DNA of 26,070 nt from a virus. Below the pieces are notes generated by a model. That model was given only the letters and a program-made list of their open reading frames with translations. It was not told the origin of the DNA and did not search any database. Below are positions 1,180 to 21,968 of this stretch, piece after piece. Positions within the stretch are counted from its first letter, which is position 1, and each line of letters begins with the position of its first letter. The DNA is taken from the IMG/VR virus record IMGVR_UViG_3300037809_000515, positions 1-26,070 of that record; one strand, 5' to 3'. The position numbers were made by a program, and so were the translations under genes.

Positions 1180-1431
1180 ATGATCAAAGAAGAATTCAAG
1201 AAACTTAAAGTTGGCGACCTACTAGAATGGAACAATACAGTCACAACTAATACAAACCCTTTCGGCGTCGTAACACAATCCAATCATAGTTTTCAAAGCG
1301 CAAACACGCAAATCATGAAGTTTCACCAAGTCTTAATCAAATGGAGTAATCACGATGATATTTGCATATATCACGAATTTGATTCTCACACCTTGCAACT
1401 TCTCACACTAATCGCGGAGGCAAAAAAATGA
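1180..1431 (+). CDS. GDLV-family small protein (array copy 1)
   Basis: 83 aa; motif KVGDLL at residues 10-15, strand GVVTQS, then VLIKWSN and the terminal strand LLTLIAEAKK. GGAG at 1166-1169 lies 10 nt before the ATG. The codons for the last residues, AEAKK, read GCGGAGGCAAAAAAA and therefore provide the ribosome site for the next gene, whose ATG overlaps this stop (ATGA). First gene after the GC-rich hairpins. Function unknown. Confidence 0.7.
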   Translation: MIKEEFKKLKVGDLLEWNNTVTTNTNPFGVVTQSNHSFQSANTQIMKFHQVLIKWSNHDDICIYHEFDSHTLQLLTLIAEAKK

Positions 1432-1712
1432 GCGAAAATATATTTGACAGATTTGACATTGGCGATTTGGTAAAGCATACGAATTGGGGCGGCATAAAAG
1501 ACGGTAAGCGTAACGCTCTCATAACCTATGGCGTGGTGTCTGCAATAAGAACACACGAAACACCAATCCTCCCAGAACGAAAAGTAGAAGTTACAATTCA
1601 ATACATTAACGATTATCTGTCAAAGGTACATTACGGCAATCGCAATTCAGATCACTTGACCAAATTAATAATTATCGCAAAAGGCAAAACCAATGCTAAG
1701 AAAAACAGATAA
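1428..1712 (+). CDS. GDLV-family small protein (array copy 2)
   Basis: 94 aa; FDIGDLV at residues 9-15, then YGVVSAI, VEVTIQYIND and LTKLIIIAKGK. The start overlaps the previous stop by 4 nt (ATGA), with GGAGG 8 nt upstream inside the previous gene. The tail AKGKTNAKKNR is very basic. It shares the N-terminal block DRFDIGDLV with the next gene, so copies 2 and 3 look like the closest relatives in the array. Confidence 0.7.
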   Translation: MSENIFDRFDIGDLVKHTNWGGIKDGKRNALITYGVVSAIRTHETPILPERKVEVTIQYINDYLSKVHYGNRNSDHLTKLIIIAKGKTNAKKNR

Positions 1713-1962
1713 TAAATCACTCCTTGACAGATTCGATATTGGTGATCTTGTTAGCAGCGGAATCAGAATTAAACCAATTCACGGGATCGTGATAAAACTT
1801 AAAAAACATAATTATCCAATATCCGGCTTGCACAATACCGGAGTTAAAATCAAGTGGCTCAAACACACCGGGGAAATCCGTGAAATGTGGTATTTGTTGG
1901 ACGAAAAAAATTGGTGGATCAAAAAAATTGTGATTTTAGCCAAAGCCCGTCGAAATTCGTAA
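1693..1962 (+). CDS. GDLV-family small protein (array copy 3)
   Basis: 89 aa; DRFDIGDLV at residues 12-20, HGIVIKL, VKIKWLKHTG, IVILAKARR. The start lies 20 nt inside the previous gene, after AAAGG in 'gcaaaaggcaaaacca'. It is the last gene of the first coupled group: a 98-nt gap with a promoter follows. Confidence 0.7.
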   Translation: MLRKTDNKSLLDRFDIGDLVSSGIRIKPIHGIVIKLKKHNYPISGLHNTGVKIKWLKHTGEIREMWYLLDEKNWWIKKIVILAKARRNS

Positions 1963-2013
1963 GGGTATCCACAGAAAAGATCAATAAATCGACATAATGT
2001 AGGGTTTACCTGC

Positions 2014-2043
2014 TTGACCGACATAATAAATTAATGCTATATT
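2014..2043 (+). promoter_or_regulatory. sigma70-like promoter
   Basis: TTGACC (2014-2019), an 18-nt spacer, and TATATT (2038-2043), in the 98-nt gap before the gene at 2061. It would start transcription near 2050, just before that gene's ribosome site, and feed the rest of the small-gene array. Confidence 0.55.
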
Positions 2044-2060
2044 ATAGGTGAAGGTAAGGG

Positions 2061-2222
2061 ATGAAAGAAAAAATAAAAGCAATTCTAATCGCGGTCTTGA
2101 CGGTCTTGACAATCGGGTCGGCAATCGCGTTAGTCGATAACCCCAAACCAAACAACCTCAGTGCGAGCATTACTCGCGAGATTAACTTAACAAAGTGGCT
2201 GAATAAGCCAAGGAAAAAATAA
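2061..2222 (+). CDS. small single-pass membrane or exported peptide, 53 aa
   Basis: ATG at 2061, preceded by AAGGTAAGGG, and stop TAA at 2220-2222. A basic N-terminus (MKEKIK) is followed by a hydrophobic helix (AILIAVLTVLTIGSAIALV) and a polar, basic C-terminus, which fits a single membrane anchor or an uncleaved signal peptide. It is the first gene after the promoter at 2014-2043 and unrelated to the GDLV proteins around it. No family recognised. Confidence 0.6.
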   Translation: MKEKIKAILIAVLTVLTIGSAIALVDNPKPNNLSASITREINLTKWLNKPRKK

Positions 2223-2223
2223 C

Positions 2224-2451
2224 ATGCTAAACGAAAAAAAACAAAACGAAATTCGAGTTCTCGCAAAATACTTGCGTTTAGAGATCAGCAGCCTAGAAGA
2301 TCTGGATTTCGTCGTCAAAGAATTATTCAAGGGTAGGGCTGAAGTTTTGCCGGACAATCAAGGTCAATTAAACATTTATACCGGGCATACTTTTGGTATG
2401 CATACAGGCGATATTACTTGCTTGGAAACCAAAGAATTTTTGGACTCTTAA
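2224..2451 (+). CDS. hypothetical protein, 75 aa
   Basis: Starts 1 nt after the previous stop. The ribosome site AAGGA (2210-2214) follows a small hairpin (GGCT-gaata-AGCC, 2197-2209). N-terminal half is charged and helical (NEIRVLAKYLRLEISSLEDLDFVVKELF), and the C-terminal half contains HTFGMHTGDITCLETKEFL. It lacks the GDLV motif and I do not recognise it. Confidence 0.6.
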   Translation: MLNEKKQNEIRVLAKYLRLEISSLEDLDFVVKELFKGRAEVLPDNQGQLNIYTGHTFGMHTGDITCLETKEFLDS

Positions 2452-2493
2452 TCTTAACCCTTTAACCGGCTGGACAAGCCAAGGAATTAAACA

Positions 2494-2712
2494 ATGTTTG
2501 GAATTCTAGAAAAAATGGACAAGTTCTCAAGTGAGACAATGACAAGCGAGGAAAAAATCTCGTTTATGCAAGAGATCATTAATAATGGAATGGTTTGGGA
2601 TATGCACCAAAAGTATATCGCTCAAGCTTCTCAATATTTGAGTGATGGTCAATGCCATTATGCCTTTATGGAAAACATGGTCAATCCTGTTAAAAGCGAG
2701 ACTGTAAAATAA
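2494..2712 (+). CDS. hypothetical small phage protein, 72 aa
   Basis: A helical protein: SEEKISFMQEIINNGMVWDM, then HQKYIAQASQYLSDGQC. The pattern 'FxQxxIxxGxVWxxxxxYxxxAxxLxxxG' is like small uncharacterised phage proteins in which a short helical hairpin is conserved; that similarity is from memory. The ribosome site AAGGA at 2481-2485 follows a GGCT-N5-AGCC hairpin (2468-2480), the same arrangement as at the gene before. Stop overlaps the next ATG by one base (TAATG). Confidence 0.6.
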   Translation: MFGILEKMDKFSSETMTSEEKISFMQEIINNGMVWDMHQKYIAQASQYLSDGQCHYAFMENMVNPVKSETVK

Positions 2713-2981
2713 TGTCTCAATTTTCAACAAAAAACAAAAGTTGCGTTTGGTTCTTCCTTGGACACGATCTAAGTGCGGACGATCCAAAACTTTTAGAATT
2801 GTTGAAAAAATACAAAGTCAAAGCCGACTTCCGCGTCTATCGTGGTCGCTCGGCTGTCTTTGTCAATAGCCCTTATCGAATTGGTTCAATTCGAAAACGA
2901 TTATGGGGAGATCCTTGGGCAATCCATTCCGATTGGCTGGCAGAAGACACGCGATACCGTGAGGAAAAAAATAATGATTAA
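2712..2981 (+). CDS. hypothetical protein, 89 aa
   Basis: Coupled to the previous gene through TAATG. Contains a mixed alpha/beta pattern (SCVWFFLGHDLSAD, LLKKYKVKADFRVYRGRSAVFV) and many aromatic residues near its end (LWGDPWAIHSDWL). No GDLV motif and no recognised family. The next gene begins 8 nt before its stop. Confidence 0.55.
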   Translation: MSQFSTKNKSCVWFFLGHDLSADDPKLLELLKKYKVKADFRVYRGRSAVFVNSPYRIGSIRKRLWGDPWAIHSDWLAEDTRYREEKNND

Positions 2982-3228
2982 ATCAAATGTTAAAGATGGA
3001 AGTTTTGTAAAGCATACAATTGGCGAAACGCTTGAGGCGGGATGGCTGGTTCAAATTAAGCGTCCTGGTGAGTTTACTACAAGTGAACTTGGTTTTGGTG
3101 ATGGTCCTTATCTGGGAATTGTGCTTAAGCGCGATGATAATGGTGCGTCCAAATATTGGCGGATACTTTTGCCAAATGGAAAAAAGCCAATCGTGAAACC
3201 TGATGAAGTTGAGTTGATCGCGGGGTAA
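2974..3228 (+). CDS. GDLV-like small protein, divergent copy
   Basis: 84 aa from the ATG at 2974, chosen over an earlier in-frame ATG at 2842 because GAGG lies about 10 nt upstream and the 8-nt overlap with the previous stop (ATGATTAA) is the junction type used repeatedly in this array. The N-terminal motif has diverged to EAGWLVQIKR, but the later strands LGIVLKRD, YWRILLPNGK and PDEVELIAG match the family layout. Confidence 0.65.
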   Translation: MIKSNVKDGSFVKHTIGETLEAGWLVQIKRPGEFTTSELGFGDGPYLGIVLKRDDNGASKYWRILLPNGKKPIVKPDEVELIAG

Positions 3229-3458
3229 TGCGAATGTCTGTGGAAGAAAAAAATAAACCAACAATGTACAAACCTGGTGACTTGGTTAGAAATAGAACTT
3301 TAAATGTTGCGGGCGACGACTGGGAGCATCACATGTGCATTGTCGTGAAAGCAAGAAAGGCTGTTATAACTGGCGAAATAATTTATTCTGTACGATTTCC
3401 TAATGGAAACATTGGTGGTACGTGGGCTTGTGATATGGAGTTGATAGCAAGTGCATGA
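3228..3458 (+). CDS. GDLV-family small protein
   Basis: 76 aa; motif KPGDLVRN at residues 15-22, strand CIVVKARK, then YSVRFPNG and MELIASA. The start overlaps the previous stop (TAATG); an in-frame ATG two codons later (3234) is an alternative. The last codons GTGCATGA overlap the next gene's start. Confidence 0.65.
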   Translation: MRMSVEEKNKPTMYKPGDLVRNRTLNVAGDDWEHHMCIVVKARKAVITGEIIYSVRFPNGNIGGTWACDMELIASA

Positions 3459-3699
3459 TTGGGACGCTGAAAGAATCCGCACTTATAAATGTGGGACGCA
3501 TCCAAAAAAAGGAGATCTTGTTGTTCGACAGATCCTCAAACAAGGATCATTCACCAAAGAATATCGTTATGGAATTGTTACGGGGAAACTTAAATTACCA
3601 ACGGGTTTGGTAATGCCCGTAATTTTGTGGTGTGGTCACGGTAAGCCAAAACGATGTATATCGAAGAATGTGGAATTGGTGGTGAGAAATGAAAAATAA
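3451..3699 (+). CDS. GDLV-family small protein
   Basis: 82 aa; KKGDLVVRQ near residues 19-27, YGIVTGK, VILWCGHGK, VELVVRN. GTG start in an 8-nt overlap with the previous stop (GTGCATGA). Contains two Cys residues (C14 and one in LWCGHG), unusual for the family. Confidence 0.65.
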   Translation: MHDWDAERIRTYKCGTHPKKGDLVVRQILKQGSFTKEYRYGIVTGKLKLPTGLVMPVILWCGHGKPKRCISKNVELVVRNEK

Positions 3700-3922
3700 A
3701 AATTATAGATTCCAACGAGGCGATTTAGTCAAAAATAAAAAGTCTATTACTTGGCGCAATCAAGATGCGCTTGGCATTATTATAGAAGACGTGGGAATGT
3801 TTAGTGGTCGGCAACTTGTTCGAATAAAGTGGATTAAGTCAAACTCGCCCGAATTAACTAAAAACTTGCGGAAGCATTATTATGCCAAGAGTCTTGAATT
3901 AGTTGCGAGTGTGTCCAAGTGA
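3689..3922 (+). CDS. GDLV-family small protein
   Basis: 77 aa; RGDLVKNKK near residues 10-18, LGIIIED, LVRIKWIK, LELVASVSK. ATG start 11 nt inside the previous gene, preceded by GGTGAG. Strongly basic in its first half. Confidence 0.65.
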   Translation: MKNKNYRFQRGDLVKNKKSITWRNQDALGIIIEDVGMFSGRQLVRIKWIKSNSPELTKNLRKHYYAKSLELVASVSK

Positions 3923-4137
3923 AAAAATTTCCGTCAAGCTTTATTATCGGTGAATTGGTTGAGGTTATCGATTCTCTGGATGGTCCTATTGAGGGTCGGG
4001 ATATACTTGCGGGAACTTTGGGGATTGTTGTTGAACAAGTTGGTATGTCAAAAGATTATTATGTGGTTCACTTGCCTTGTGGAGAAAATCAAATTATGTC
4101 CTATAAATGGATAAGGAAGGTGTCTCGTGAATCCTGA
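3919..4137 (+). CDS. GDLV-family small protein (GELV variant)
   Basis: 72 aa with a GTG start in a 4-nt overlap (GTGA) with the previous stop. Motif FIIGELVEVID, strand LGIVVEQVG, then YYVVHLPCG. The GDLV motif is changed to GELV. It has a longer loop after the motif (DGPIEGRDILAG). Confidence 0.6.
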   Translation: MKKFPSSFIIGELVEVIDSLDGPIEGRDILAGTLGIVVEQVGMSKDYYVVHLPCGENQIMSYKWIRKVSRES

Positions 4138-4366
4138 AGAATTTTGTATTGGTGATCTTGTGGAAGATATTCAAGCTCCTGGTTCACAAGGTGTTTTCAC
4201 TGGATGGGGCTATAATGGCTTTGAGCAAGTCTGTGGAGGCGTTGAGACTAAGATCGCAATCGTTACGTGGCTCAAGCATGAAGAATGTGAGGGGCATCCT
4301 GGCTCAAGCTGGCGCATCTGGACGAATGAATTAAATTTGCTTGCGAAAGGAAAATCAAATGCATGA
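4127..4366 (+). CDS. GDLV-family small protein
   Basis: 79 aa, GTG start 11 nt inside the previous gene, after AAGGAAGG. FCIGDLVEDI at residues 6-15, then IAIVTWLKHEE and LNLLAKGKSNA. The tail codons contain AAAGGA, the likely ribosome site of the next gene. A 61-codon ATG frame overlapping it (4149) is a shadow. Confidence 0.65.
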   Translation: MNPEEFCIGDLVEDIQAPGSQGVFTGWGYNGFEQVCGGVETKIAIVTWLKHEECEGHPGSSWRIWTNELNLLAKGKSNA

Positions 4367-4559
4367 TTGGTTAGGTATTAAAGTTTTTGATGTGGGCGAC
4401 ATGGTTAAAGTAAAAACGCGCACTAATGGAGAGGATGATTATGGCGTTGTCACAAGCACTTCTCAAACTGGTGGTCAATGGTCCTACTTTCTTCGTTGCT
4501 TGGACGGAGTCGATTCGTGGTATCTGGGTTGGGAATTGGAGGAATTTGTAAATGTTTAA
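4359..4559 (+). CDS. GDLV-family small protein (GDMV variant)
   Basis: 66 aa from ATG 4359. An upstream in-frame TTG exists at 4341, but AAAGGA sits 8 nt before the ATG and the 8-nt overlap ATGCATGA is the array's standard junction. FDVGDMVKVK, YGVVTST, YFLRCLDG, LEEFVNV. Aromatic-rich in the middle (WSYF, WYLGW). Confidence 0.65.
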   Translation: MHDWLGIKVFDVGDMVKVKTRTNGEDDYGVVTSTSQTGGQWSYFLRCLDGVDSWYLGWELEEFVNV

Positions 4560-4740
4560 ATCTGGCGATTTAGTAAAGATACTTAATGTTTATATGGAAA
4601 GCGATTTAGGCATTATTATTAGACAAGGCAAGAATCCCTGTGAAGGCGAACAAATGGCTATTACCACGGCAGAATGGCTTGTGCATTTACCGGACGGCCG
4701 AAGGGTTTGGCTTTGGGCGAATGAGATAAGAAATGTTTAA
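4552..4740 (+). CDS. GDLV-family small protein (minimal copy)
   Basis: 62 aa, one of the shortest members. GDLV begins at residue 5 (MFKSGDLVKI), then LGIIIRQGK, WLVHLPDGR and VWLWANEIRNV. 8-nt overlap ATGTTTAA with the previous stop, and the same ATGTTTAA at its own end. GGAGG (4538-4542) lies upstream of the start. It probably shows the minimal domain: motif, three strands and a closing strand. Confidence 0.65.
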   Translation: MFKSGDLVKILNVYMESDLGIIIRQGKNPCEGEQMAITTAEWLVHLPDGRRVWLWANEIRNV

Positions 4741-4963
4741 TATTGGCGATTTAGTTTCTCAAAAAAGAGCAGAGATTTCGTTCGGGCTTGGGATTGTGGT
4801 GGGAATATCTGATCGCACTGCTGGACCGGATAACCCGAAGGTGTTTGCGTATCAAGTTCATTTTGCTAAAGGCAAAAAACACGGCTATAACGATTCAATT
4901 TCCAAACGATGGTTTTTGGAACAAGACATACAATTAGTTAGTGAGGCAAAAACAAATGTATAA
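4733..4963 (+). CDS. GDLV-family small protein
   Basis: 76 aa; MFNIGDLVSQ, LGIVVGISD, AYQVHFAKGK, IQLVSEAKTNV. 8-nt overlaps at both ends (ATGTTTAA and ATGTATAA). GTGAGG in its last codons serves the next start. Confidence 0.65.
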   Translation: MFNIGDLVSQKRAEISFGLGIVVGISDRTAGPDNPKVFAYQVHFAKGKKHGYNDSISKRWFLEQDIQLVSEAKTNV

Positions 4964-5183
4964 ATTTAAGATTGGAGATCTTGTTAAAGGTAATGTTAAA
5001 GTTGAGTCGTTTGGAGTTGCGTCTTTTAGTGGATATGGCATTGTTATGAAAACTCTTAGTGGAGGTTCCCACCGAAAAAATCAAAGTGTTTTTGTTTATT
5101 GGCAAGATCATCCTATAGGTATTTGGGTGGTCGCACCAAAATTAATAATAGTTGCGGAGGCAAAAAATGATAAAACAACTTAA
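4956..5183 (+). CDS. GDLV-family small protein
   Basis: 75 aa from ATG 4956 (an upstream in-frame GTG at 4941 is itself part of the GTGAGG ribosome site, so I reject it). FKIGDLVKGN, YGIVMKTL, VFVYWQDHP, LIIVAEAKND. Its AEAKN codons read GCGGAGGCAAAAAAT and place GGAGG about 7 nt before the next ATG. Confidence 0.65.
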   Translation: MYKFKIGDLVKGNVKVESFGVASFSGYGIVMKTLSGGSHRKNQSVFVYWQDHPIGIWVVAPKLIIVAEAKNDKTT

Positions 5184-5370
5184 TGTTGGCGATTTGGTTG
5201 AGGGCGGTTTTGGTCTATTACATCACGATTATGGTTTGGGAATCATAATTCAAAAAAAACGCTTTGCACCCCAAGTATATGCTTATCAAATTCATTGGTC
5301 CAATCATAATACGACATGGGAACCAGTAAAACAATTAACCTTGGTGGCAAAAAATGAGTTACAACAATGA
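5167..5370 (+). CDS. GDLV-family small protein
   Basis: 67 aa from ATG 5167 (CGGAGG at 5155-5160), 17 nt inside the previous gene. LNVGDLVEGG, LGIIIQKKR, YQIHWSN, LTLVAKNELQQ. The region matching the tail of copy 1 (GCGGAGGCAAAAAA) lies just upstream, an almost identical junction 3.7 kb away. Confidence 0.65.
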   Translation: MIKQLNVGDLVEGGFGLLHHDYGLGIIIQKKRFAPQVYAYQIHWSNHNTTWEPVKQLTLVAKNELQQ

Positions 5371-5584
5371 TGTTTATAAATTAGAAATTGGTGATCTTGT
5401 GGAGCGCATTACATGGGATTCATTCGCTAAAAAACTCGGTGTCGTGGTAGCAATTGGTGAAGACGTACCAAGCCCCGGTGCTGGTGGTCATATGATAAAA
5501 GTGTGTTGGGCGGATAATTATGGAACCTTCTGGGCTCAACCTAGTAAACTTAAATTAATAGCAAAGGCAAAGAAAAATGTTTAA
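5354..5584 (+). CDS. GDLV-family small protein
   Basis: 76 aa; LEIGDLVERI at residues 10-19, LGVVVAIGED, IKVCWADN, LKLIAKAKKNV. Starts 17 nt inside the previous gene after GGTGGC. It ends with ATGTTTAA, the 8-nt junction to the next gene. Confidence 0.65.
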   Translation: MSYNNDVYKLEIGDLVERITWDSFAKKLGVVVAIGEDVPSPGAGGHMIKVCWADNYGTFWAQPSKLKLIAKAKKNV

Positions 5585-5786
5585 GAAAAACGAAATAGCA
5601 AAATTGCGTATGGGCTTGCATAATCGCCCCTGCCGTGTTAGAATTGTGGATGTGGTTGGTGACGATGCGATGGTTGAACAAAATAATGGAACCATTTCTA
5701 TTGTGGATGTTAATGAATTGCTTCCTATCCTTGAAGGCAACGAGAAAAATTTGCGACGACGAAGGAAAAGTGAAAGACGTGCATAA
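5577..5786 (+). CDS. small SH3-like protein lacking GDLV
   Basis: 69 aa. It lacks GDLV but keeps a short-strand pattern (CRVRIVDVVGDDAMVEQ, NGTISIVDVNELLPIL) that looks like a KOW/SH3-type barrel, followed by an extremely basic tail (RRRRKSERRA). Coupled on both sides by 8-nt overlaps (ATGTTTAA, GTGCATAA). Possibly a nucleic-acid-binding member; inferred from charge only. Confidence 0.6.
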   Translation: MFKKNEIAKLRMGLHNRPCRVRIVDVVGDDAMVEQNNGTISIVDVNELLPILEGNEKNLRRRRKSERRA

Positions 5787-5952
5787 AGAATTTAAAGTTG
5801 GAAATCTGGTGCGAATAAAAACTCAGAATGAATACTTTAAAATGCGAAGGGGTATTGTCTTCGGATTTACAGATCAAGGTGCTTTAAAGGTTCGGTGGTC
5901 CAACGGCACGTCCGATATTCATAGTGGGATTGGATTAATAAAGGTGGCGTGA
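5779..5952 (+). CDS. GDLV-family small protein (GNLV variant)
   Basis: 57 aa from GTG 5779, chosen because the 8-nt overlap GTGCATAA matches the other junctions; GTG 5770 is an alternative. No ATG start fits, since the in-frame ATG at 5635 lies inside the previous gene. FKVGNLVRIK, RGIVFGFTD, LKVRWSNG, GLIKVA. Motif changed to GNLV. Confidence 0.6.
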   Translation: MHKEFKVGNLVRIKTQNEYFKMRRGIVFGFTDQGALKVRWSNGTSDIHSGIGLIKVA

Positions 5953-6170
5953 TGGACGCAACAGATTTTAATATTGGAGATTTGGTGACGGTAAGAACGA
6001 CACGCGAATTGGGCGTCATCGTGAAGCTTGGCAGAGAGTATCCCGACAACGGTAGATATCGTTCGCAGTTCGCAGATATTAAATGGCACGATATGGAAAA
6101 GCCTTGTCGGATTTATAAGTGTTATGGAAACTGGGATTGTGTAAAGGTGGTGGTTCGTGCGAAAACATAG
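5952..6170 (+). CDS. GDLV-family small protein
   Basis: 72 aa; FNIGDLVTVR, LGVIVKLGR, ADIKWHDM, VKVVVRAKT. ATG 5952 preceded by AAGGTGG; a GTG directly before it (5949) would overlap the previous stop as GTGA. Ends with TAG. A 50-codon basic gene starts 14 nt before its stop. Confidence 0.65.
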   Translation: MDATDFNIGDLVTVRTTRELGVIVKLGREYPDNGRYRSQFADIKWHDMEKPCRIYKCYGNWDCVKVVVRAKT

Positions 6171-6309
6171 AAGAAAAATATGGGACAGCGGTCAGGACGC
6201 AAATGCTTTTTATAAACGGAAAGCGGGTGCTCACGATCATAAATTAACGAAGCGCAACAAGACGCGACAAAAGATTAGAAAGATTAAAAAAATCTTGGAG
6301 GAATACTGA
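6157..6309 (+). CDS. very basic 50-aa protein
   Basis: GTG start at 6157 with AAGGTGG about 8-13 nt upstream; stop TGA 6307-6309 overlaps the next ATG (TGATG). This fills an otherwise empty 138-nt gap exactly. About 40% of residues are Lys, Arg or His (RKHRRKIWDSG, KLTKRNKTRQKIRKIKK), suggesting RNA or DNA binding or a ribosome-associated peptide. GGAGG in its last codons is the ribosome site of the next gene. Unrelated to the GDLV family. The coupling at both ends makes it likely real despite its length. Confidence 0.6.
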   Translation: MRKHRRKIWDSGQDANAFYKRKAGAHDHKLTKRNKTRQKIRKIKKILEEY

Positions 6310-6518
6310 TGTTTTTTGAAAAGGGTGATCTTGTATGTGAAACCAAACACCCTAATAGACGAGGGTATATTTGCGAAGTCTTAACGGGTAAAAACAGTGA
6401 TCGTGACTATCTTGAAGTACGGTGGCTAAACTTTCCGTGGGGCAATCCACATACGCGGACGATTGAGGTTCCAAAACATATGACTATACTCTCGAAAGGA
6501 AATAAAAATGAGAAATAA
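6309..6518 (+). CDS. GDLV-family small protein
   Basis: 69 aa; FEKGDLVCET at residues 3-12, GYICEVL, LEVRWLN, MTILSKGNKNEK. The second strand lacks the usual GIV (GYI instead). Start coupled by TGATG. AAAGGA in its tail codons precedes the next ATG. Confidence 0.65.
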   Translation: MFFEKGDLVCETKHPNRRGYICEVLTGKNSDRDYLEVRWLNFPWGNPHTRTIEVPKHMTILSKGNKNEK

Positions 6519-6705
6519 ATTTGAAATCGGCGATCTGGTTAGCCACACACTCCGACCCTATACCGGAGTTATTGTCGAAATAATATACCAAGAACACTTA
6601 TCGTACAAGAGAGCACCGATGTATAAAGTTGCTTGGGAGTATGGCGAGTGGATGTATGAAGTGGAAGAACAATTAAAAATAGAAGCCAGGGCGAAGTGTG
6701 CATGA
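6508..6705 (+). CDS. GDLV-family small protein
   Basis: 65 aa; FEIGDLVSHT, TGVIVEII, YKVAWEYGEW, LKIEARAKCA. Starts 11 nt inside the previous gene with AAAGGA 9 nt upstream; its stop overlaps the next ATG (ATGA). Confidence 0.65.
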   Translation: MRNKFEIGDLVSHTLRPYTGVIVEIIYQEHLSYKRAPMYKVAWEYGEWMYEVEEQLKIEARAKCA

Positions 6706-6917
6706 TGGAATTTGATAAAGGCGATTTGATAAAATCTAATCTAAGCAGTACCGTCTTTGATGAAAAAGATTGGTACGGAATTATTCTTGATGTTTGTAAA
6801 GATGCTCCTCACAAACATCCTGTTCTCGCGAACAAGTATAAGATAAGATGGTGCGGTGGTGCAACCTCGTGGCTGTTTGGGCACTCCATTGATTTAGTTT
6901 CTCGGGGCAAGAAGTAG
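6702..6917 (+). CDS. GDLV-family small protein (GDLI variant)
   Basis: 71 aa from ATG 6702 (4-nt overlap ATGA); an in-frame GTG at 6696 and a second ATG at 6705 are alternatives. FDKGDLIKSN, YGIILDVCK, YKIRWCGG, IDLVSRGKK. Ends in TAG, followed by an 8-nt gap: the tight coupling of the array loosens from here. Confidence 0.65.
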   Translation: MMEFDKGDLIKSNLSSTVFDEKDWYGIILDVCKDAPHKHPVLANKYKIRWCGGATSWLFGHSIDLVSRGKK

Positions 6918-6925
6918 TTATATGT

Positions 6926-7126
6926 ATGAAGCGACTTTCAAAGTTTGCCATTGGAGATCTTGTTCGAAGACGTTCTATCTTAGCAACAAAAAACCAAGGA
7001 TATGGGATCATTATAGGGCTAGATCTAAATAAGGCTGAGTGCCTGTGGAGTGATGAAGAAACAAAGTGGCTCAAGATATCCCAAATTTATTTAATTGCTC
7101 GGGGGCAAAATGGAGACATGTCATAG
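6926..7126 (+). CDS. GDLV-family small protein
   Basis: 66 aa; FAIGDLVRRR at residues 7-16, YGIIIGLD, AECLWSDEE, IYLIARGQNG. No clear Shine-Dalgarno (only AAGAAG). The stop is a TAG that lies in the same frame as the next gene, so read-through would fuse the two proteins. Confidence 0.65.
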   Translation: MKRLSKFAIGDLVRRRSILATKNQGYGIIIGLDLNKAECLWSDEETKWLKISQIYLIARGQNGDMS

Positions 7127-7150
7127 CTATGCTGCCGCCTATTTACTGAT

Positions 7151-7363
7151 GTGGGCGAGCACACAGAATTCAACATTGGAGATCTAGTAACTTACCGTGA
7201 AGATTTGCTTGGAGTTAAGGGGCACACAGGAGTTGTTATTAATGTTTTTACTGATGGCGATGATATATGTTATATGATGGTAAGGTGGCATGACGGCGAA
7301 GTTTATCCCGAACTTGGGAAACATATTGTTTTGTTAGCAAGAGCAAAAAATGATAAACGATAA
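7151..7363 (+). CDS. GDLV-family small protein, weak start
   Basis: 70 aa from GTG 7151; FNIGDLVTYR, TGVVINVF, MMVRWHDG, IVLLARAKNDKR. There is no ribosome site before this GTG and no ATG in frame after the upstream TAG at 7124-7126. The segment between (reading LCCRLFTD) is not family-like. It may be translated by re-initiation, by leaky TAG read-through from the previous gene, or poorly. Confidence 0.6.
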   Translation: MGEHTEFNIGDLVTYREDLLGVKGHTGVVINVFTDGDDICYMMVRWHDGEVYPELGKHIVLLARAKNDKR

Positions 7364-7586
7364 AGCAAATATGGGTGATTTAGTAATGTTTCGAAAACCG
7401 AATGTTCGGTGGACCGACAAGGAAGATCCATATATCTACGGAATGATTAAAAAAATAATTCCCCCCGGTAGTGGATGGAACAACGGCCGTCGATTAAAAT
7501 ATAATGTTCTTTCCTCCGCAGGAAGACTTTATCATGAAGTAAATCACGAAAAAATTATTATTTTATCTAAAGTAAAAAAAGCTTGA
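7350..7586 (+). CDS. GDLV-family small protein (last of array)
   Basis: 78 aa; NMGDLVMFR at residues 7-15, YGMIKKII, LKYNVLSSAG, IIILSKVKKA. Starts 14 nt inside the previous gene, whose tail GCAAGAGCAAAAA precedes the ATG. The array ends here: a promoter for a different gene follows immediately. Confidence 0.65.
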   Translation: MINDKANMGDLVMFRKPNVRWTDKEDPYIYGMIKKIIPPGSGWNNGRRLKYNVLSSAGRLYHEVNHEKIIILSKVKKA

Positions 7587-7962: not shown

Positions 7963-8388
7963 ATGAGCAATCTAAAAGATATTGATGGTCTTTATGAAAA
8001 GTATCCCAAATTATTGCTCAAGAATTGTATTGACTGTAACGTGGGGTGGTACAGGATTATTGATCACATGTGCTCTGCAATCCAGACATATGTTGACGGA
8101 GAAATTGCAGAACATGATATATATCCTAAATTTTTGCGTATACAAGAAAAGTTTGGGGTATTAAATATAGAAGTTGATGATGGAGATGAAATAACAGAAC
8201 TAGTTTCGCGAAGCTGCGAAATATTAAGTTATCACACTTGTGAATATTGTGGGGAACATGGGGAACTTTATTGTTCTTCCAAGTGGAGAAGCTGGTGTCA
8301 CTATAAAACGCTATGTCTAGATCACGCAATTGAGTTTTATTATTATCGCTTATATCGCGATTCTGAATTTAAAAAGGATAATGAATGA
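7963..8388 (+). CDS. small zinc-binding-like phage protein, 141 aa
   Basis: The C-terminal third holds a likely zinc site (CEYCGEHGELYC, then WCHYKTLCLDHA: C-x2-C ... C-x2-H), and the middle has the phage-typical 'IQEKFGVLNIEV' strand. Similar proteins, with a 'GWxxIIDxxCxxIQ' N-terminus and a C-terminal Cys/His cluster, occur as uncharacterised genes in large phages; this is from memory. No Shine-Dalgarno precedes the ATG, consistent with a leaderless mRNA. The stop overlaps the aceB start by 4 nt (ATGA), so it is the first gene of the glyoxylate operon, whether or not it has a related function. Confidence 0.65.
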   Translation: MSNLKDIDGLYEKYPKLLLKNCIDCNVGWYRIIDHMCSAIQTYVDGEIAEHDIYPKFLRIQEKFGVLNIEVDDGDEITELVSRSCEILSYHTCEYCGEHGELYCSSKWRSWCHYKTLCLDHAIEFYYYRLYRDSEFKKDNE

Positions 8389-9884
8389 CAACAAATATTT
8401 TGCCTCTAAAGGCAAAGCTGTTTCTGGATACACTCCAAGGTATCTTCGAACCAAAAATTATACAACTATTATCAGAACGAAACAATAGAAAAGGCTTGCT
8501 ACCAAAACAAATCTTAACCGCAGCATCAAATGATGACCCTAATTGGAAAGTGCTTCCCCCTCCTAAAGATATTTTAGATCGACGAGTAGAAATCACAGGA
8601 CCACCAGTTAGAAAAATGATCATCAATGCCCTAAACTCAGGGGCAAATGTTTTCATGGCTGACTTTGAGGATTCCAATTCTCCTACTTGGGAAAACTGTA
8701 CAGATGGACAACAAAATCTTTATGATGCGGTAAGAAAAAAAATAGATTTTGTTGATCCCCAAACACAAAAGGAATATAAACTAAATAAAAAAGTTGCGAC
8801 TCTGTTTGTTCGTCCTCGTGGATTACACTTGGTAGAAAAAAATTATAATAATATCCCGGCAAGTCTCTTTGATTTTGGATTATACTTTTTTCATAATCAC
8901 AAACAACTTCTAAAAAACGGAACTCGACCATATTTTTATTTACCTAAAATAGAACACTATAGAGAAGCTAGGTTGTGGAATGAAATATTTTCTTTTGCAG
9001 AAAGCTCTTTTGATCTTCCTGTAGGGACAATAAGAGCCACAGTGCTTATAGAGACACTGCCCGCTGCCTTTCAGATGGACAAGATTCTATATGAACTCCG
9101 GGCTCACTCTGTAGGACTAAATTGTGGACGATGGGATTATATATTTAGTTTCATCAAGTCTTTATCTCTTTCCAGGGATGCAGTGCTTCCAGATCGCGAT
9201 GAAGTAGGAATGACTCAGCACTTTATGCGATCTTATACACAACTACTAATACAAACTTGTCATAAGCGCGGCGCTCACGCAATCGGGGGAATGGCTGCAC
9301 AGATTCCAATCAAAAATGATCCCGAAGCAAATCATGTGGCTATGAACAAAGTTCGCGCCGATAAACTTCGAGAGGTTCAAGATGGTCACGACGGAACTTG
9401 GGTGGCGCATCCTGTTTTAGTGGATGTGGCTAAAGAAATTTTTGATGAACACCTAAAAGCACCAAACCAAATTGATAAACAAATTTGTTTAAATTATTCT
9501 ATTGAGTCGGCTGATCTCTTATGCACTCCAAAGGGTCAATGCACCGAGGCTGCCTTAAGAAAAAATATAGGTATTGCCTTTCAGTATATAAATTCTTGGA
9601 TAAATGGTAATGGATGTGTACCAATTGATAATCTTATGGAAGATGCTGCCACCGCAGAAATCTCTAGAGCCCAAATTTGGCAGTGGCGAAAACACAAAAT
9701 ATATTTATCTAATGGAAAACAAGTTACGAACAAATATCTTGGATTGGTGATAAACTCTGAAATAAAAAAATTTGAACACTACAAAAAGTTTGAAGAAACA
9801 AGTATAATTCTAAATAAGTTATGCTTTAGTGAGGAAATAATTGACTTTCTGACTTTAGAGTGTTACGATAATTTATGTGAATAA
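8385..9884 (+). CDS. aceB: malate synthase A
   Basis: 499 aa; condenses glyoxylate and acetyl-CoA to malate, the second step of the glyoxylate bypass. Visible family signatures: [15 protein letters not shown] (89-102), [13 protein letters not shown] (141-153) with the substrate-binding Arg, [19 protein letters not shown] (221-239), [13 protein letters not shown] (243-255), and [17 protein letters not shown] (418-434) with the catalytic Asp near 420. The protein is full length, slightly shorter than the ~530-residue bacterial enzymes, and no key motif is damaged, so it should be active. It is translationally coupled to the gene before (ATGA) and followed 20 nt later by aceA. A phage-carried auxiliary metabolic gene; codon use is AT-rich like its neighbours, so not a very recent acquisition. 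Confidence 0.95.
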
Positions 9885-9904: not shown

Positions 9905-11134
9905 ATGATAAACAGATGGAATGGAATTAAGAAATCTTATAATAAACAGGATGTGCTTGATCTTAGAGGAAGCAAGAAAATTGAATACACTCTTGCTAAA
10001 GATGGAGCCGAAAAGTTATGGGACTTACTAAATAAAAAAGATGCTGTTCGAGCCCTAGGAGCCCTTACAGGAAACCAAGCGGTACAACAGGTCAAAGCTG
10101 GATTGAAAGCAATTTATCTTAGTGGCTGGCAAGTTGCGGCTGACGCAAACCTTGCTGGTGACATGTATCCTGATCAAAGTCTTTATCCAGCGAACAGTGT
10201 TCCACAAGTTGTTAAAAAAATTAATAAAGCATTTCAGAGAGCCGACCAAATCGAAAGTGTTGAAGGAAATAATCAAATTGATTATTATGCGCCAATCGTT
10301 GCGGACGCTGAAGCTGGCTTTGGTGGACCGCTGAACGCTTATGAGTTGATGAAGGGAATGATTGAGGCTGGTGCTGCGGGCGTACACTTCGAAGATCAGT
10401 TGGCTTCTGAAAAAAAATGCGGGCATATGGGCGGAAAAGTTCTTGTTCCAACAAGCCAATTTATTCGTACCCTGACTGCGGCAAGATTGGCGGCTGATGT
10501 GTGCGACACTCCAACTGTATTGATTGCTCGCACTGATGCCAATAGCGCGAAGCTTATTACCTCTGATGTGGACGAGCGAGATCATAAATTTATGACTGGC
10601 GAAAGAACACCGGAGGGATTTTATAAAATCACAGGTGGTTTAGAAATGGGGATCGCTCGTGGTTTAGCTTATGCTCCTTATGCAGACTTGCTATGGCTTG
10701 AGACTTCAACACCATGTCTTGAGGAGGCAAAGAAATTTGCTGATGCGATTCATTCGAAATTTCCAGATAAATTATTAGCTTATAACTGTTCCCCATCTTT
10801 TAACTGGGAAAAGCATTTGGACAAATATACGATTGCTATGTTTCAAAACTCTTTAGAGAAAATGGGATACAAATTCCAGTTTGTAACTTTAGCTGGATTC
10901 CATTCATTAAATTATAGTATGTTTTCTTTGGCTAGGGATTATAAAGATTTAGGAATGACTGCTTATTCTGAATTGCAACAAAAAGAATTTGATCAAGTTC
11001 ATAATGGATTTACTGCTGTAAAGCATCAAAGAGAAGTTGGCACAGGCTATTTTGACAGGGTTTCCGAGGTTATTAGCGGGGGCGAGTCTTCAACCCTAGC
11101 ATTAATAAATTCTACTGAAGAAGAACAGTTCTAA
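9905..11134 (+). CDS. aceA: isocitrate lyase
   Basis: 409 aa; cleaves isocitrate to glyoxylate and succinate, the first step of the glyoxylate bypass. Landmarks: [14 protein letters not shown] (71-84), [13 protein letters not shown] (88-100), [10 protein letters not shown] (132-141), catalytic loop [13 protein letters not shown] (170-182, Cys172), NCSPSFNW (294-301), FVTLAGFH (326-333) and the typical C-terminus STEEEQF. Length and motifs resemble the bacterial AceA type; the N-terminus is shorter by about 20 residues, as in many bacteria. AAGGGG lies about 12 nt before the ATG. With aceB it forms a complete glyoxylate shunt. It would let an infected cell bypass the CO2-releasing TCA steps and keep carbon from acetate or fatty acids for biosynthesis (role inferred). 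Confidence 0.96.
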
Positions 11135-11418: not shown

Positions 11419-11631
11419 ATGATGAATAAGAATAGATTCGAGATTGGAGATATGATAGTTTCCATTTGTGGTGATTATGGGCTAGTGTTAAAGACAGGAC
11501 TTAGAACAGATGATGCCGGAAATGGTAAAGCGGGCGTCTATGCACGTTGGGCGAAGGAAAAACTTTCGTTTTGGATGGATATGGATGAGCCCGCAATTGA
11601 GCTTTTTTGCTCAAAAGGAGAAGAAGAATGA
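11419..11631 (+). CDS. GDLV-family small protein, detached copy
   Basis: 70 aa; FEIGDMIVSI near residues 7-16, YGLVLKTG, VYARWAKEK, AIELFCSK. Clearly the same layout as the array genes, although 3.8 kb away and inside an envelope-gene unit. ATG 11419 or the second ATG at 11422 could be the start; no strong ribosome site, since it begins 3 nt after the previous stop. Its own tail codons (AAAGGAGAAGAAGA) give the ribosome site for the next gene, as in the array. Confidence 0.65.
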   Translation: MMNKNRFEIGDMIVSICGDYGLVLKTGLRTDDAGNGKAGVYARWAKEKLSFWMDMDEPAIELFCSKGEEE

Positions 11632-12528: not shown

Positions 12529-13584
12529 ATGAAAAACGCACTTATAAATGGAGATTCTTTGGACATTCTAAAGAAATTACCAAACAACTCTTTCGACTCG
12601 ATGGTAACTGACCCGCCCGCAGGAATTGCATTTATGGGTAAAAAATGGGATAAAGATAAGGGTGGGCGCAAGTTATGGATTGCTTGGCTAGAATCTATTA
12701 TGACCGAAGCCTTACGCACTCTCAAACCAGGAGCGCACATTTTAGTTTGGGCAATTCCCAGAACAAGTCATTGGACTGCTACCGCAATTGAAAATGCCGA
12801 ATTTGAAATCAGGGATGTTGTTACGCATATTTTTGGAAGTGGATTTCCCAAGTCTCATAACATAGGTAAAAAAATAAAAGAGTTTGATGGTTGGGGCACC
12901 GCTTTAAAACCTGCCAGTGAACATTGGATTTTAGCAAGGAAACCTTTATCAGAAAAGACTATTGCTGCTAATGTTTTAGAACACGGCACAGGTGGAATCA
13001 ACATTGATGCGAGTAGAATAAAAGCAGGACAAAATGATGGGCGTTTTCCTGCTAATCTTATTCTATCTCACAAACCAGGTTGTAAACAAGTGGGAAGCAA
13101 GGAAGGAAAAGGTTATACCATCAATAGATTTACCGATGGAGCCAAACCTTTTGGTAATGGCGCGGGTCATCCTTATAAAGTAGAAGATCAAGGACCAGAA
13201 ACAATTGCAGTATGGGATTGCAATGATGATTGCGCGGTAAAACAATTAGGTGAAGAAAATCGCTTCTTTTATTGTGCTAAGGCTTCAAAAAAAGAGAAAA
13301 CATTAAATAAAACAATTGATAACAAGCATCCTACTGTAAAATCTCTTAAATTAATGAAATACTTAATAAATCTTGTAACACCTCCTGGTGGGGTTGTGCT
13401 GGACCCATTTATGGGGAGTGGTACAACCGGACAAGCAGCATTAGAAGACGATTTCGGCTTTGTGGGGGTCGAATTGGAGGCTGATAGCTTTGAGATCTGT
13501 AAGGCTAGGTGCTCAAACATAGAAACCCTAATTGTTAATAAAAAGATAGAGGAAAAAAGTATTGATCAAGTCGTTTTAGTGTGA
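12529..13584 (+). CDS. DNA methyltransferase (amino-MTase, beta-type order)
   Basis: 351 aa. S-adenosylmethionine-dependent methyltransferase acting on an exocyclic amino group of DNA (N6-adenine or N4-cytosine). The catalytic motif comes first (TDPPA, 27-31) and the AdoMet motif last (DPFMGSGTTG, 292-301, then FVGVEL), i.e. the beta-type order; HPTVKSLKLMKYLI precedes it as usual. The catalytic motif has Ala where DPPY is typical. Phage orphan enzymes with 'DPPAGIxFMGKxWD' are common in my recollection, so this is likely a subfamily feature. No restriction partner adjoins, so the role is probably protection of phage DNA or regulation. Confidence 0.9.
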   Translation: MKNALINGDSLDILKKLPNNSFDSMVTDPPAGIAFMGKKWDKDKGGRKLWIAWLESIMTEALRTLKPGAHILVWAIPRTSHWTATAIENAEFEIRDVVTHIFGSGFPKSHNIGKKIKEFDGWGTALKPASEHWILARKPLSEKTIAANVLEHGTGGINIDASRIKAGQNDGRFPANLILSHKPGCKQVGSKEGKGYTINRFTDGAKPFGNGAGHPYKVEDQGPETIAVWDCNDDCAVKQLGEENRFFYCAKASKKEKTLNKTIDNKHPTVKSLKLMKYLINLVTPPGGVVLDPFMGSGTTGQAALEDDFGFVGVELEADSFEICKARCSNIETLIVNKKIEEKSIDQVVLV

Positions 13585-13596
13585 TACCATAGAGGT

Positions 13597-14169
13597 ATGA
13601 AAAATAAAAAATATTTGGTGATAGATACCGAAACAGGTGGTCTAGATCCAGAAAAAAACAGTATTTTAAGCATCGCGGGTGTCTTATGGGAACCAGGAAA
13701 GACAGTTGAGCCTGTTTTTGACCTATATGTCAAAGAACACTTCATAAATGTTGAAGAAGCAGCACTAAAAGTTAATAAAATCAATATGAATGAAGTGCAT
13801 TTGGCTGATGAACCGTATATCGTTGTAAAAAAGATTCAAAATGCCTTAAATGAGCGTCTTGGCCAAGACAGAAAAGCAATTCAACTTGTTGGTCACAATG
13901 TTGCCTTTGATATTGCGTTTACAAAACGACTTTATCGTCATGCGGGCTTAGAAAAAGAATATAGCAACGACTTTCGCGATAGAGCGATGGATACTTGCTC
14001 TATTTTGGAATTTTTGATGCTTTCTGGGAAAGTGGAAGGCTATAGAGCCTCCGGTGATGTTTTATTTAAAGCAGCGGGTGTTGAAATCGAAGAAAAAGAC
14101 CGTCACACGGCTTTAGGTGATGCTGTCGCCACAGCTTATGCTTTAGAGTCATTAATTACGAAATTTTAG
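13597..14169 (+). CDS. DnaQ-like DEDDh 3'-5' exonuclease
   Basis: 190 aa. Catalytic motifs are intact: VIDTETGG (Exo I, Asp10 and Glu12), VGHNVAFDIAF (Exo II, Asp105) and DRHTALGDA (Exo III, His170 and Asp175). It resembles the proofreading epsilon-type fold or a stand-alone exonuclease of the RNase T/DnaQ superfamily; no polymerase domain is attached. AGAGG just before the ATG, 12 nt after the methyltransferase stop, so the two are probably one operon. Likely acts in phage DNA repair, processing or nucleotide recycling. Confidence 0.9.
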   Translation: MKNKKYLVIDTETGGLDPEKNSILSIAGVLWEPGKTVEPVFDLYVKEHFINVEEAALKVNKINMNEVHLADEPYIVVKKIQNALNERLGQDRKAIQLVGHNVAFDIAFTKRLYRHAGLEKEYSNDFRDRAMDTCSILEFLMLSGKVEGYRASGDVLFKAAGVEIEEKDRHTALGDAVATAYALESLITKF

Positions 14170-14837: not shown

Positions 14838-15299
14838 ATGACTATATTAGACAAGGACTTAGAAAAGAAACTATTTGAAGCCGGTATGGGCGAGCTTACG
14901 TTGTGGCTTATTAAAAAAGGGTGGACACTTGATCTAGATTATCTTAATCAAGACGAAATGTTACCATCTAGCAAGCTTATAAACATAAGCACACGCCAAG
15001 GAATAGAAAAACAATTTTATTCTTTATTACATGAATGTGGTCACTTGCTTATTCAATCAAACTGGGAAAACTACGAGAAAGCATATCCAGCCACAGCAAG
15101 GATGTATGCTTATGCCACCACTAATAAACAATTAGCGCGTAGCCCCAAATATAAAGTGGATTGCATATCGGAAGAACTCGAAGCATGGCGACGAGGAAAG
15201 AAACTAGCAGATCGCTTATCATTATATTATAGTGAGGAGAGGTATAATGACTTAACAGCCAAGTGTGTTTATACCTATATTCAATGGGCAAACAAGTAG
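14838..15299 (+). CDS. HExGH zinc metallopeptidase-like protein
   Basis: 153 aa from ATG 14838, preceded by AGGAGGGG; an earlier in-frame ATG (14784) lies upstream of the promoter's -10 and is rejected. Motif LLHECGHLL (HECGH, residues 65-69) is the zinc-binding/catalytic HExxH of ImmA/IrrE-like and related peptidases. ISEELEAWRRGKK about 45-50 residues later can supply the third ligand (Glu). No transmembrane segment. Cellular target unknown. The next gene starts inside its 3' end. Confidence 0.75.
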   Translation: MTILDKDLEKKLFEAGMGELTLWLIKKGWTLDLDYLNQDEMLPSSKLINISTRQGIEKQFYSLLHECGHLLIQSNWENYEKAYPATARMYAYATTNKQLARSPKYKVDCISEELEAWRRGKKLADRLSLYYSEERYNDLTAKCVYTYIQWANK

Positions 15300-15517
15300 A
15301 AGATGGCGATGCCTTTGGTAGCCGATATTTAGATATTTTTAAGGTTGGTGATTTAGTTTCGTGGGCTCACCTAGGGAATACCAAAGAATATGGTTATATA
15401 ATAAAAATTTATAATGAAAAGATGAGGGCAAATCGTTGTTTTGTATTTGCTCGCATTCGTAAAACAGATGGTTCAACCGAGAACTTTATGTTATCGGAAA
15501 TACAAAAAGAATCATAA
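15284..15517 (+). CDS. GDLV-family small protein, detached copy
   Basis: 77 aa from ATG 15284, inside the end of the previous gene; FKVGDLVSWA at residues 18-27, YGYIIKIYN, FVFARIRKTDG, FMLSEIQK. It belongs to the same layout as the 1180-7586 array and lies about 7.7 kb downstream. An in-frame GTG at 15263 is an alternative. Confidence 0.6.
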   Translation: MGKQVEDGDAFGSRYLDIFKVGDLVSWAHLGNTKEYGYIIKIYNEKMRANRCFVFARIRKTDGSTENFMLSEIQKES

Positions 15518-20629: not shown

Positions 20630-20702
20630 GCGAATGTAGCTCAACTGGCAGAGTGTCAGCCTTCCAAGCTGAAAGTTGCGGGTTCGAACCCCGCCATTCG
20701 CT
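20630..20702 (+). tRNA. tRNA-Gly (anticodon TCC)
   Basis: 73 nt, complete cloverleaf: acceptor GCGAATG/CATTCGC, D-arm GCTC...GAGT, anticodon arm TCAGC-CTTCCAA-GCTGA with anticodon TCC (reads GGA), T-arm GCGGG-TTCGAAC-CCCGC, discriminator T. No encoded CCA. It begins right after the T-run of the ncRNA, so it is either read through that terminator or made from another start. GGA glycine codons are frequent in this AT-rich phage. Confidence 0.95.
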
Positions 20703-21758: not shown

Positions 21759-21968
21759 ATGAACATCGGAGATAAAGTTTTTTTACTATATACGCATCGC
21801 AACACAAAGGAAACTTTTTGTGAAGGCCCATCGGAAATAACTAATTATCAAGTTAATCCTCATAACGATGAGGGTGTTATAGTTATCAAAGATATTAATG
21901 GAAAATCAAGAGCTGTTGATCTAGAAGGTACATCCAGTCACGACGTTGACGTTCACATCGTATATTAG
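21759..21968 (+). CDS. GDLV-like small protein, detached copy
   Basis: 69 aa; MNIGDKVFLLYTH, with IGDKV at the position of the family motif, then EGVIVIKDINGKSRAVDL and VHIVY. A short SH3-like layout, more distant than the array genes. Preceded by GGTAAGG; a TTGATC lies 36 nt upstream but without a good -10. Its end overlaps the end of the convergent minus-strand gene by 4 nt, with no terminator between. Confidence 0.55.
   Translation: MNIGDKVFLLYTHRNTKETFCEGPSEITNYQVNPHNDEGVIVIKDINGKSRAVDLEGTSSHDVDVHIVY

Follow-up and report, generated by a model that had tools for sequence, protein, structure and literature searches.

Why should a virus carry more than 20 small genes of one family in a row? 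This question is raised by the IMG/VR virus record IMGVR_UViG_3300037809_000515, whose 26,070 bases are called the window here. The genes share a GDLV motif and lie in an array at positions 1180-7586. Our tentative answer is that the array is a modular repertoire whose members are small binding proteins with a single SH3-like domain, in our preferred reading adaptors for a machine built from a MoxR-type AAA+ protein and a vWA protein. Comparative analysis of the sequences shows one predicted fold, overlapping genes with embedded putative ribosome sites, turnover of cassettes between related phages, and linkage to a MoxR/vWA gene pair.

The array holds 22 clear GDLV-type genes of 57-94 codons each, all on the + strand. 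They were assessed with a hidden Markov model (HMM) trained on the arrays of other phage lineages only (35 rows), termed the independent HMM. It recovers 22/22 members with E-values from 4e-11 to 0.07, 18 of them below 0.001, while in a control with shuffled open reading frames (ORFs) 0/4120 fell below 1e-3. The count of more than 20 tandem genes, made in a sequence-only reading of the window, is thus borne out, and a 23rd, weak member (GETLEAGWLV, E=0.002) lies at 2974-3228 (+). The run is not an unbroken one: the array is real, yet small non-GDLV genes interrupt it at 2061-2981, 5577-5786 and 6157-6309. Three further copies had been proposed outside the array. The independent profile backs those at 11419-11631 (+, E=0.03) and 15284-15517 (+, E=1e-4), and the one at 21759 was rejected (E=2.7). 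The copy at 11419 has orthologues in the related records G001 and G002, and a profile of the window's own lineage also picks up orthologues in loci L005 and L008; the copy at 15284 is identical in G001 and 52% identical in G002.

Starting at the left end, cassettes 1 to 3 occupy 1180-1431 (E=1.4e-7), 1428-1712 (E=9e-5) and 1693-1962 (E=5e-4); the tail of cassette 1, gcGGAGGcaaaaaaATG, stands before the next gene. Downstream of the weak member follow cassettes 4 (3228-3458; E=0.05, and 5e-15 with the own-lineage profile), 5 (3451-3699), 6 (3689-3922), 7 (3919-4137; GELV variant, E=0.002), 8 (4127-4366; E=0.05, own-lineage 7e-17), 9 (4359-4559; GDMV), 10 (4552-4740), 11 (4733-4963; E=3e-9), 12 (4956-5183), 13 (5167-5370) and 14 (5354-5584; E=4e-11). 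The remaining part is formed by cassettes 15 (5779-5952; GNLV), 16 (5949-6170), 17 (6309-6518), 18 (6508-6705), 19 (6705-6917; GDLI, with a possible alternative GTG start at 6696), 20 (6926-7126), 21 (7151-7363) and 22 (7350-7586; E=0.07, own-lineage 8e-12).

The window is one case among many. More than 90 IMG/VR loci in uncultured viral contigs hold GDLV genes; 26 records comprise 451 copies, with 7-32 copies per well-covered record, and a single sample not chosen by motif contains 917 unique GDLV proteins. Wherever this could be tested, the carriers are T4-like phages, with the Gp20 portal found in 7/13 records and Gp23 in 7/13. The nearest cultured portals, about 40% identical, belong to Flavobacterium phage Immuto and Microcystis phage Mel-JY01. 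Neither these two nor T4, KVP40, HTVC008M, P-SSM2, S-PM2, Syn9, S-SKS1, Caulobacter phage Seuss and one uncultured phage gave a GDLV match; the single weak match in S-SM2 lies inside a 4159-codon ORF and was taken as spurious, which leaves the 12 reference phages devoid of a convincing copy. A tblastn search against cultured phages returned nothing useful. When 84,980 genomes of bacteria and archaea were scanned for the array pattern, no profile-positive locus emerged, and none of the 14 bacterial stretches that the scan brought up has a GDLV gene by profile. Pfam, PHROG, PDB and the open-access literature, to which all our literature searches refer, leave the family unnamed, and no paper was found with the string KVGDLV. 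With hundreds of distinct members that make up large parts of uncultured T4-like phage genomes, this unnamed family represents a sizeable piece of viral dark matter.

How are the cassettes joined? In other arrays, adjacent genes typically share an overlap of exactly 14 nt. A first set contained 82 such cases; in a second one, assembled without motif selection from the 917 unique proteins, this was the usual junction (307/469 adjacent pairs). Its consensus, T-GGAGGT-nATCA-GTG-AAA-GTC-GGT-GAT-TTG-GT, is read in two frames: one ends the upstream protein with LEVISESR and a stop, the other starts the next protein with MKVGDLV, and the Shine-Dalgarno sequence GGAGGT lies inside the LEVISESR frame. 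A C-terminal [SNG]R is found in 86% of the genes that are followed by a 14-nt overlap versus 13% of the others, and hence the tail belongs to the junction rather than to the barrel. The GDLV motif is also kept in a set with 4-nt overlaps, where the 14-nt overlap is absent, which marks it as a feature of the protein. At one junction position either C or A can stand without changing the protein of either frame; C occurs there 242 times and A 48 times, versus 17 and 111 at a neighbouring valine codon. This C bias suggests conservation of the junction at the DNA level, with codon or initiation context as an alternative cause.

In the lineage of the window the start and stop codons of neighbours mostly overlap as well, more loosely, by 1-20 nt, and in the AKAK-type tails a GGAGG, GAGG or AAAGG is usually found shortly upstream of the following start. 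The "closing LxLIAKAK strand" of the sequence-only reading therefore falls into two parts: LxLI/LEVI is indeed the last barrel strand, and the AKAK-type tail is often the Shine-Dalgarno and start region of the following gene. Altogether, the C-terminal tail is for the most part the downstream gene's ribosome site. Tandem, copy-number-variable paralogues or cassettes are common to viral multigene families, to gene-cassette arrays and to the GDLV arrays; to our knowledge, no multigene family or cassette array is joined by a conserved dual-coding overlap that carries the ribosome site of the next gene. It is this organisation, lacking a known counterpart in the open literature, that is new, while the fold and the neighbouring gene pair are already known. 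The dual-coding junction offers a concrete and testable way to build an operon that can be reshuffled, each cassette bringing the ribosome site of the next one.

What do the cassettes encode? AlphaFold models were made for cassette 14 (predicted local distance difference test, pLDDT, 81) and for a member from another lineage (pLDDT 92). Both models have the strand order of an SH3-like barrel, with five predicted strands and a short turn ahead of the last one. Among the best Foldseek matches SH3-like barrels prevail by far (Spt5/NusG KOW, PWWP, tudor, PsaE and HspQ; best E 0.006), in line with the common barrel that had been predicted. Profile searches with 61 members do not assign the fold to a named family. 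In Pfam they gave scattered matches only, none shared by most members; in PHROG no family was matched by most members either (best 6/61, best E 0.006); and the KOW-family profiles gave no significant match (KOWx_SPT5 best, 0.067, 3/61 members). DUF1918 and DUF4314 resemble the family weakly and locally, at the GD..V start and along the V.W.DG strand; their best matches of 0.008 and 0.0079 are not significant, and DUF1918 stays below the Pfam cut-off.

Across 454 aligned stretches the conserved columns are GDLV, the GIV strand, V.W, a later W, and the last LEVI strand with the tail, the rest being near background. The column statistics reveal neither a conserved polar residue beyond GDLV that would point to catalysis nor a conserved basic patch. 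The sequences display a conserved hydrophobic core and hypervariable loops on one predicted fold. The isoelectric point (pI) ranges from 4.3 to 10.4 inside the window array; among 288 members the median is 6.6 and 41% lie below 6, by which a common basic charge is rejected. Such a wide range within one array argues against a single shared nucleic-acid-binding role and for different partners.

The array content changes rapidly between related phages. The closest relative, G001, is about 95% identical to the window in nucleotide sequence across the array. It carries one extra cassette after cassette 5, lacks cassettes 12 and 13, which lie between two GGCAAAAA junctions, and differs by one gain or loss at the array start. 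Alleles are diverged at cassettes 1, 5, 11 and 20; at 5 and 11 the core is affected, and at 20 the allele is replaced (proteins 61% identical). The changed tracts start and stop near cassette ends. This is suggestive of recombination breakpoints there, no more, as ends that are conserved will align well whatever the position of the true breakpoint. In the more distant G002, isocitrate lyase and the vWA C-terminus retain about 75% identity, yet only 1/22 array copies reaches 50% or more. Orthologous copies are under purifying selection, with a pooled ratio of nonsynonymous to synonymous substitution rates (dN/dS) of 0.18-0.23 and 0.14 for flanking genes.

Within a phage, 7/4432 pairs (0.16%) are at least 50% identical, five times the between-phage rate; this rarity weakens a purely local recent expansion. 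Recent duplicates do occur, with pairs of 98.6% and 86.8% identity. The former is seen at L069:18586-19163, where two GDLV genes flank a different one, a recent duplication. The extreme divergence of the copies fits a repertoire. Of the sequence-only proposal of variable binders, the single fold, the strong copy-number variation with cassette turnover and the divergence hold up, and the positive selection it had predicted is not seen at this distance.

Which partner could make use of such a repertoire? At its left end the window holds the C-terminal part of a vWA (DUF2201) protein (30-425, +; 98% identical to L002), cut by the window boundary. In G001 the gene is complete (422 amino acids, motifs HELYH and DQSGS). 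The full vWA gene matches Pfam DUF2201_N plus DUF2201. In relatives it is preceded by a MoxR-type AAA+ gene, matching AAA_5, which in the case of the window lies outside it. MoxR occurs in 17/19 array records and vWA in 16/19, adjacent wherever both are present; both are absent from Immuto and Mel-JY01. In several array records, e.g., G003:13973-16382 and G023:1697-4228, MoxR followed by the DUF2201 metallopeptidase-vWA lies inside the GDLV arrays.

In a reverse test, 80 MoxR loci were fetched without regard to arrays, as the closest relatives of the query (at least 60% MoxR identity). At least one GDLV gene is present in 78/80 of them and at least three in 70/80, with a median of 10.5, and 844/845 GDLV genes share the strand of MoxR. 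GDLV density is about 1.1 per kb on either side of the pair and near zero across it. A vWA gene was found in 79/80 loci, and all 79 proteins carry HExxH together with DxSxS, the metal-ion-dependent adhesion site (MIDAS). This linkage offers a first testable route to function and could help to explain the role of such pairs in phages. Two further genes were observed in these surroundings: a CCHC zinc-knuckle ORF (CxxCxxxGHxxxxC) near MoxR/vWA in 65/80 MoxR loci (L156-L235), and a GroEL-like chaperonin gene (PF00118) in 13/19 array records (G003, G006, G007, G010, G011, G017, G019-G024, G026), often within about 20 kb of the array, and also in Immuto.

Promoter placement bears on timing. The 171-kb contig G023 has 15 strong extended sigma70-type promoter matches. 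Of these, 11 are located in its initial 30 kb, where the array lies, and for four the gene that follows is a GDLV gene. This suggests early transcription, putatively by the host polymerase. The pattern is not seen in every record, G001 having few extended sigma70-type sites, and a search for the T4 late-promoter motif (TATAAATA) gave nothing notable around the array. On the minus strand of L126 (G023) we also noted four near-identical TTGAC-N17-TGGTAT[TG]CTA units, three of which immediately precede an ATG start in the array region. The window array itself contains a sigma70-type promoter-like site, TTGACC-18-TATATT, at 2014-2043 (+), found by consensus scan with 10/12 matches, which is weak evidence alone.

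We tentatively combine these observations as follows. GDLV genes would be made early in infection, and each barrel would bind a different, mostly host, protein. In the preferred and least certain step, the barrels would confer specificity on the MoxR/vWA-peptidase machine as adaptors, delivering their targets to it to be remodelled or cleaved, and cassette turnover would make the target set differ from phage to phage. In its full form the proposal reads that a phage MoxR AAA+ machine with its metallopeptidase-vWA partner uses an interchangeable set of up to about 30 SH3-like specificity adaptors, encoded in dual-coding overlapping cassettes, to select host proteins for remodelling or cleavage, and that recombination at the constant junctions reshuffles this set from one phage to another; so specific a version we consider doubtful.

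An adaptor role is possible for this fold, as is shown by HspQ, whose barrel is SH3-like and which enhances the specificity of the AAA+ protease Lon. HspQ (5ycq) ranks second in Foldseek for the better model (E=0.02), and one member matches YccV-like (PF08755, E=1.6e-4). HspQ/YccV is a single cellular gene. It forms no array, and only that 1/61 members matches its profile. With HExxH and DxSxS, the array neighbours form a pair like RavA-ViaA, NorQ-NorD, CbbQ-CbbO and the peptidase-vWA pair of group 2.2 jumbo phages; the accessible parts of the literature on these pairs do not mention arrays of SH3-like genes. In the NorQD system, the role of substrate adaptor is ascribed to the vWA protein (PMC9976466). 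The ternary MoxR-vWA-VMAP conflict systems also combine a MoxR-vWA core with a variable third component (PMC7159879). By their description they are set apart: they are cellular, and their variable part consists of fused effector domains instead of separate barrels.

Several points weigh against an adaptor role. It is genomic linkage only from which a function as AAA+ specificity factors is proposed, and the resemblance to HspQ does not go beyond the fold. With at least 60% identity, the 80 MoxR loci are related and not independent, and a gene order inherited within a single phage lineage may account for the linkage. L237, a relative in the window lineage with 73% MoxR identity, has only 2 GDLV genes in 20 kb. 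The MoxR gene of Vibrio phage phiKT1024 (31% identity) has no GDLV genes nearby, and a search with it found no relatives in IMG/VR. A long distance separates the pair from the dispersed copies at 11419 and 15284.

The main alternative, which we regard as just as probable, is an independent repertoire for host takeover or anti-defence, in which each barrel directly binds and blocks a different host factor and MoxR/vWA are merely neighbours in an early variable region. The rapid turnover towards G002, the early-type promoters of G023 and the variable charge would all be expected from it, and T4-like phages do have large nonessential early regions (PMC7827196). It leaves unexplained why arrays stand on both sides of the same two genes at nearly every locus, and Pfam and PHROGs yielded no match to a known family (no PADLOC search was made).

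Compared with these two proposals, the adaptor role and the takeover repertoire, it appears quite unlikely that the proteins are KOW-like nucleic-acid binders which tune transcription, ribosomes or phage mRNA, in the manner of T4 MotB or the KOW domains of NusG/Spt5. Foldseek and profile hits include uL24 besides Spt5/NusG KOW and PWWP, and MotB is itself an early, nonessential protein of a T4-like phage with a small predicted SH3/KOW-like domain (PMC7827196). However, the pI values given above and the missing basic patch speak against this role, and RNA or ribosome modulation as a shared property, suggested by the sequence-only reading, is weakened. MotB is moreover a two-domain, nonspecific DNA binder conserved in T-evens, whereas the GDLV proteins are single domains of 57-94 amino acids, multi-copy and often acidic, and no GDLV match was found anywhere in T4.

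We likewise assign little probability to virion assembly, with MoxR/vWA as a tail or capsid assembly chaperone and the GDLV proteins as its clients or decorations. Such a role was proposed by Iyer et al. for the MoxR plus peptidase-vWA pair of group 2.2 jumbo phages (PMC7824862). In G011 and G023, however, a distance of about 50-100 kb separates the arrays from the genes for Gp20 and Gp23 on the same contig, copy number varies freely, and sigma70-like promoters occupy the array region of G023. Finally, a selfish or nearly neutral duplication array maintained by recombination at the junctions would account for the constant junction and the recent duplicates and is highly improbable in view of the purifying selection on orthologues and the strong divergence of most same-phage copies.

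Other genes of the window were named along the way. A malate synthase-like gene (8385-9884) and an isocitrate lyase-like gene (9905-11134, KKCGH motif) were named by reading and would form a viral glyoxylate shunt; viral papers that mention both enzymes exist, and relatives of the isocitrate lyase, 61-98% identical, were found in 25 IMG/VR loci. PHROG matches identify a DNA methyltransferase at 12529-13584 and a DNA polymerase exonuclease subunit at 13597-14169. The 876-amino-acid protein at 17186-19816 matches a cytidylyltransferase-like protein of a Microcystis phage in its N-terminal part (30%) and a phage nicotinamide mononucleotide (NMN) adenylyltransferase in its middle (34%). A tRNA-Gly (tcc) gene is located at 20630-20702.

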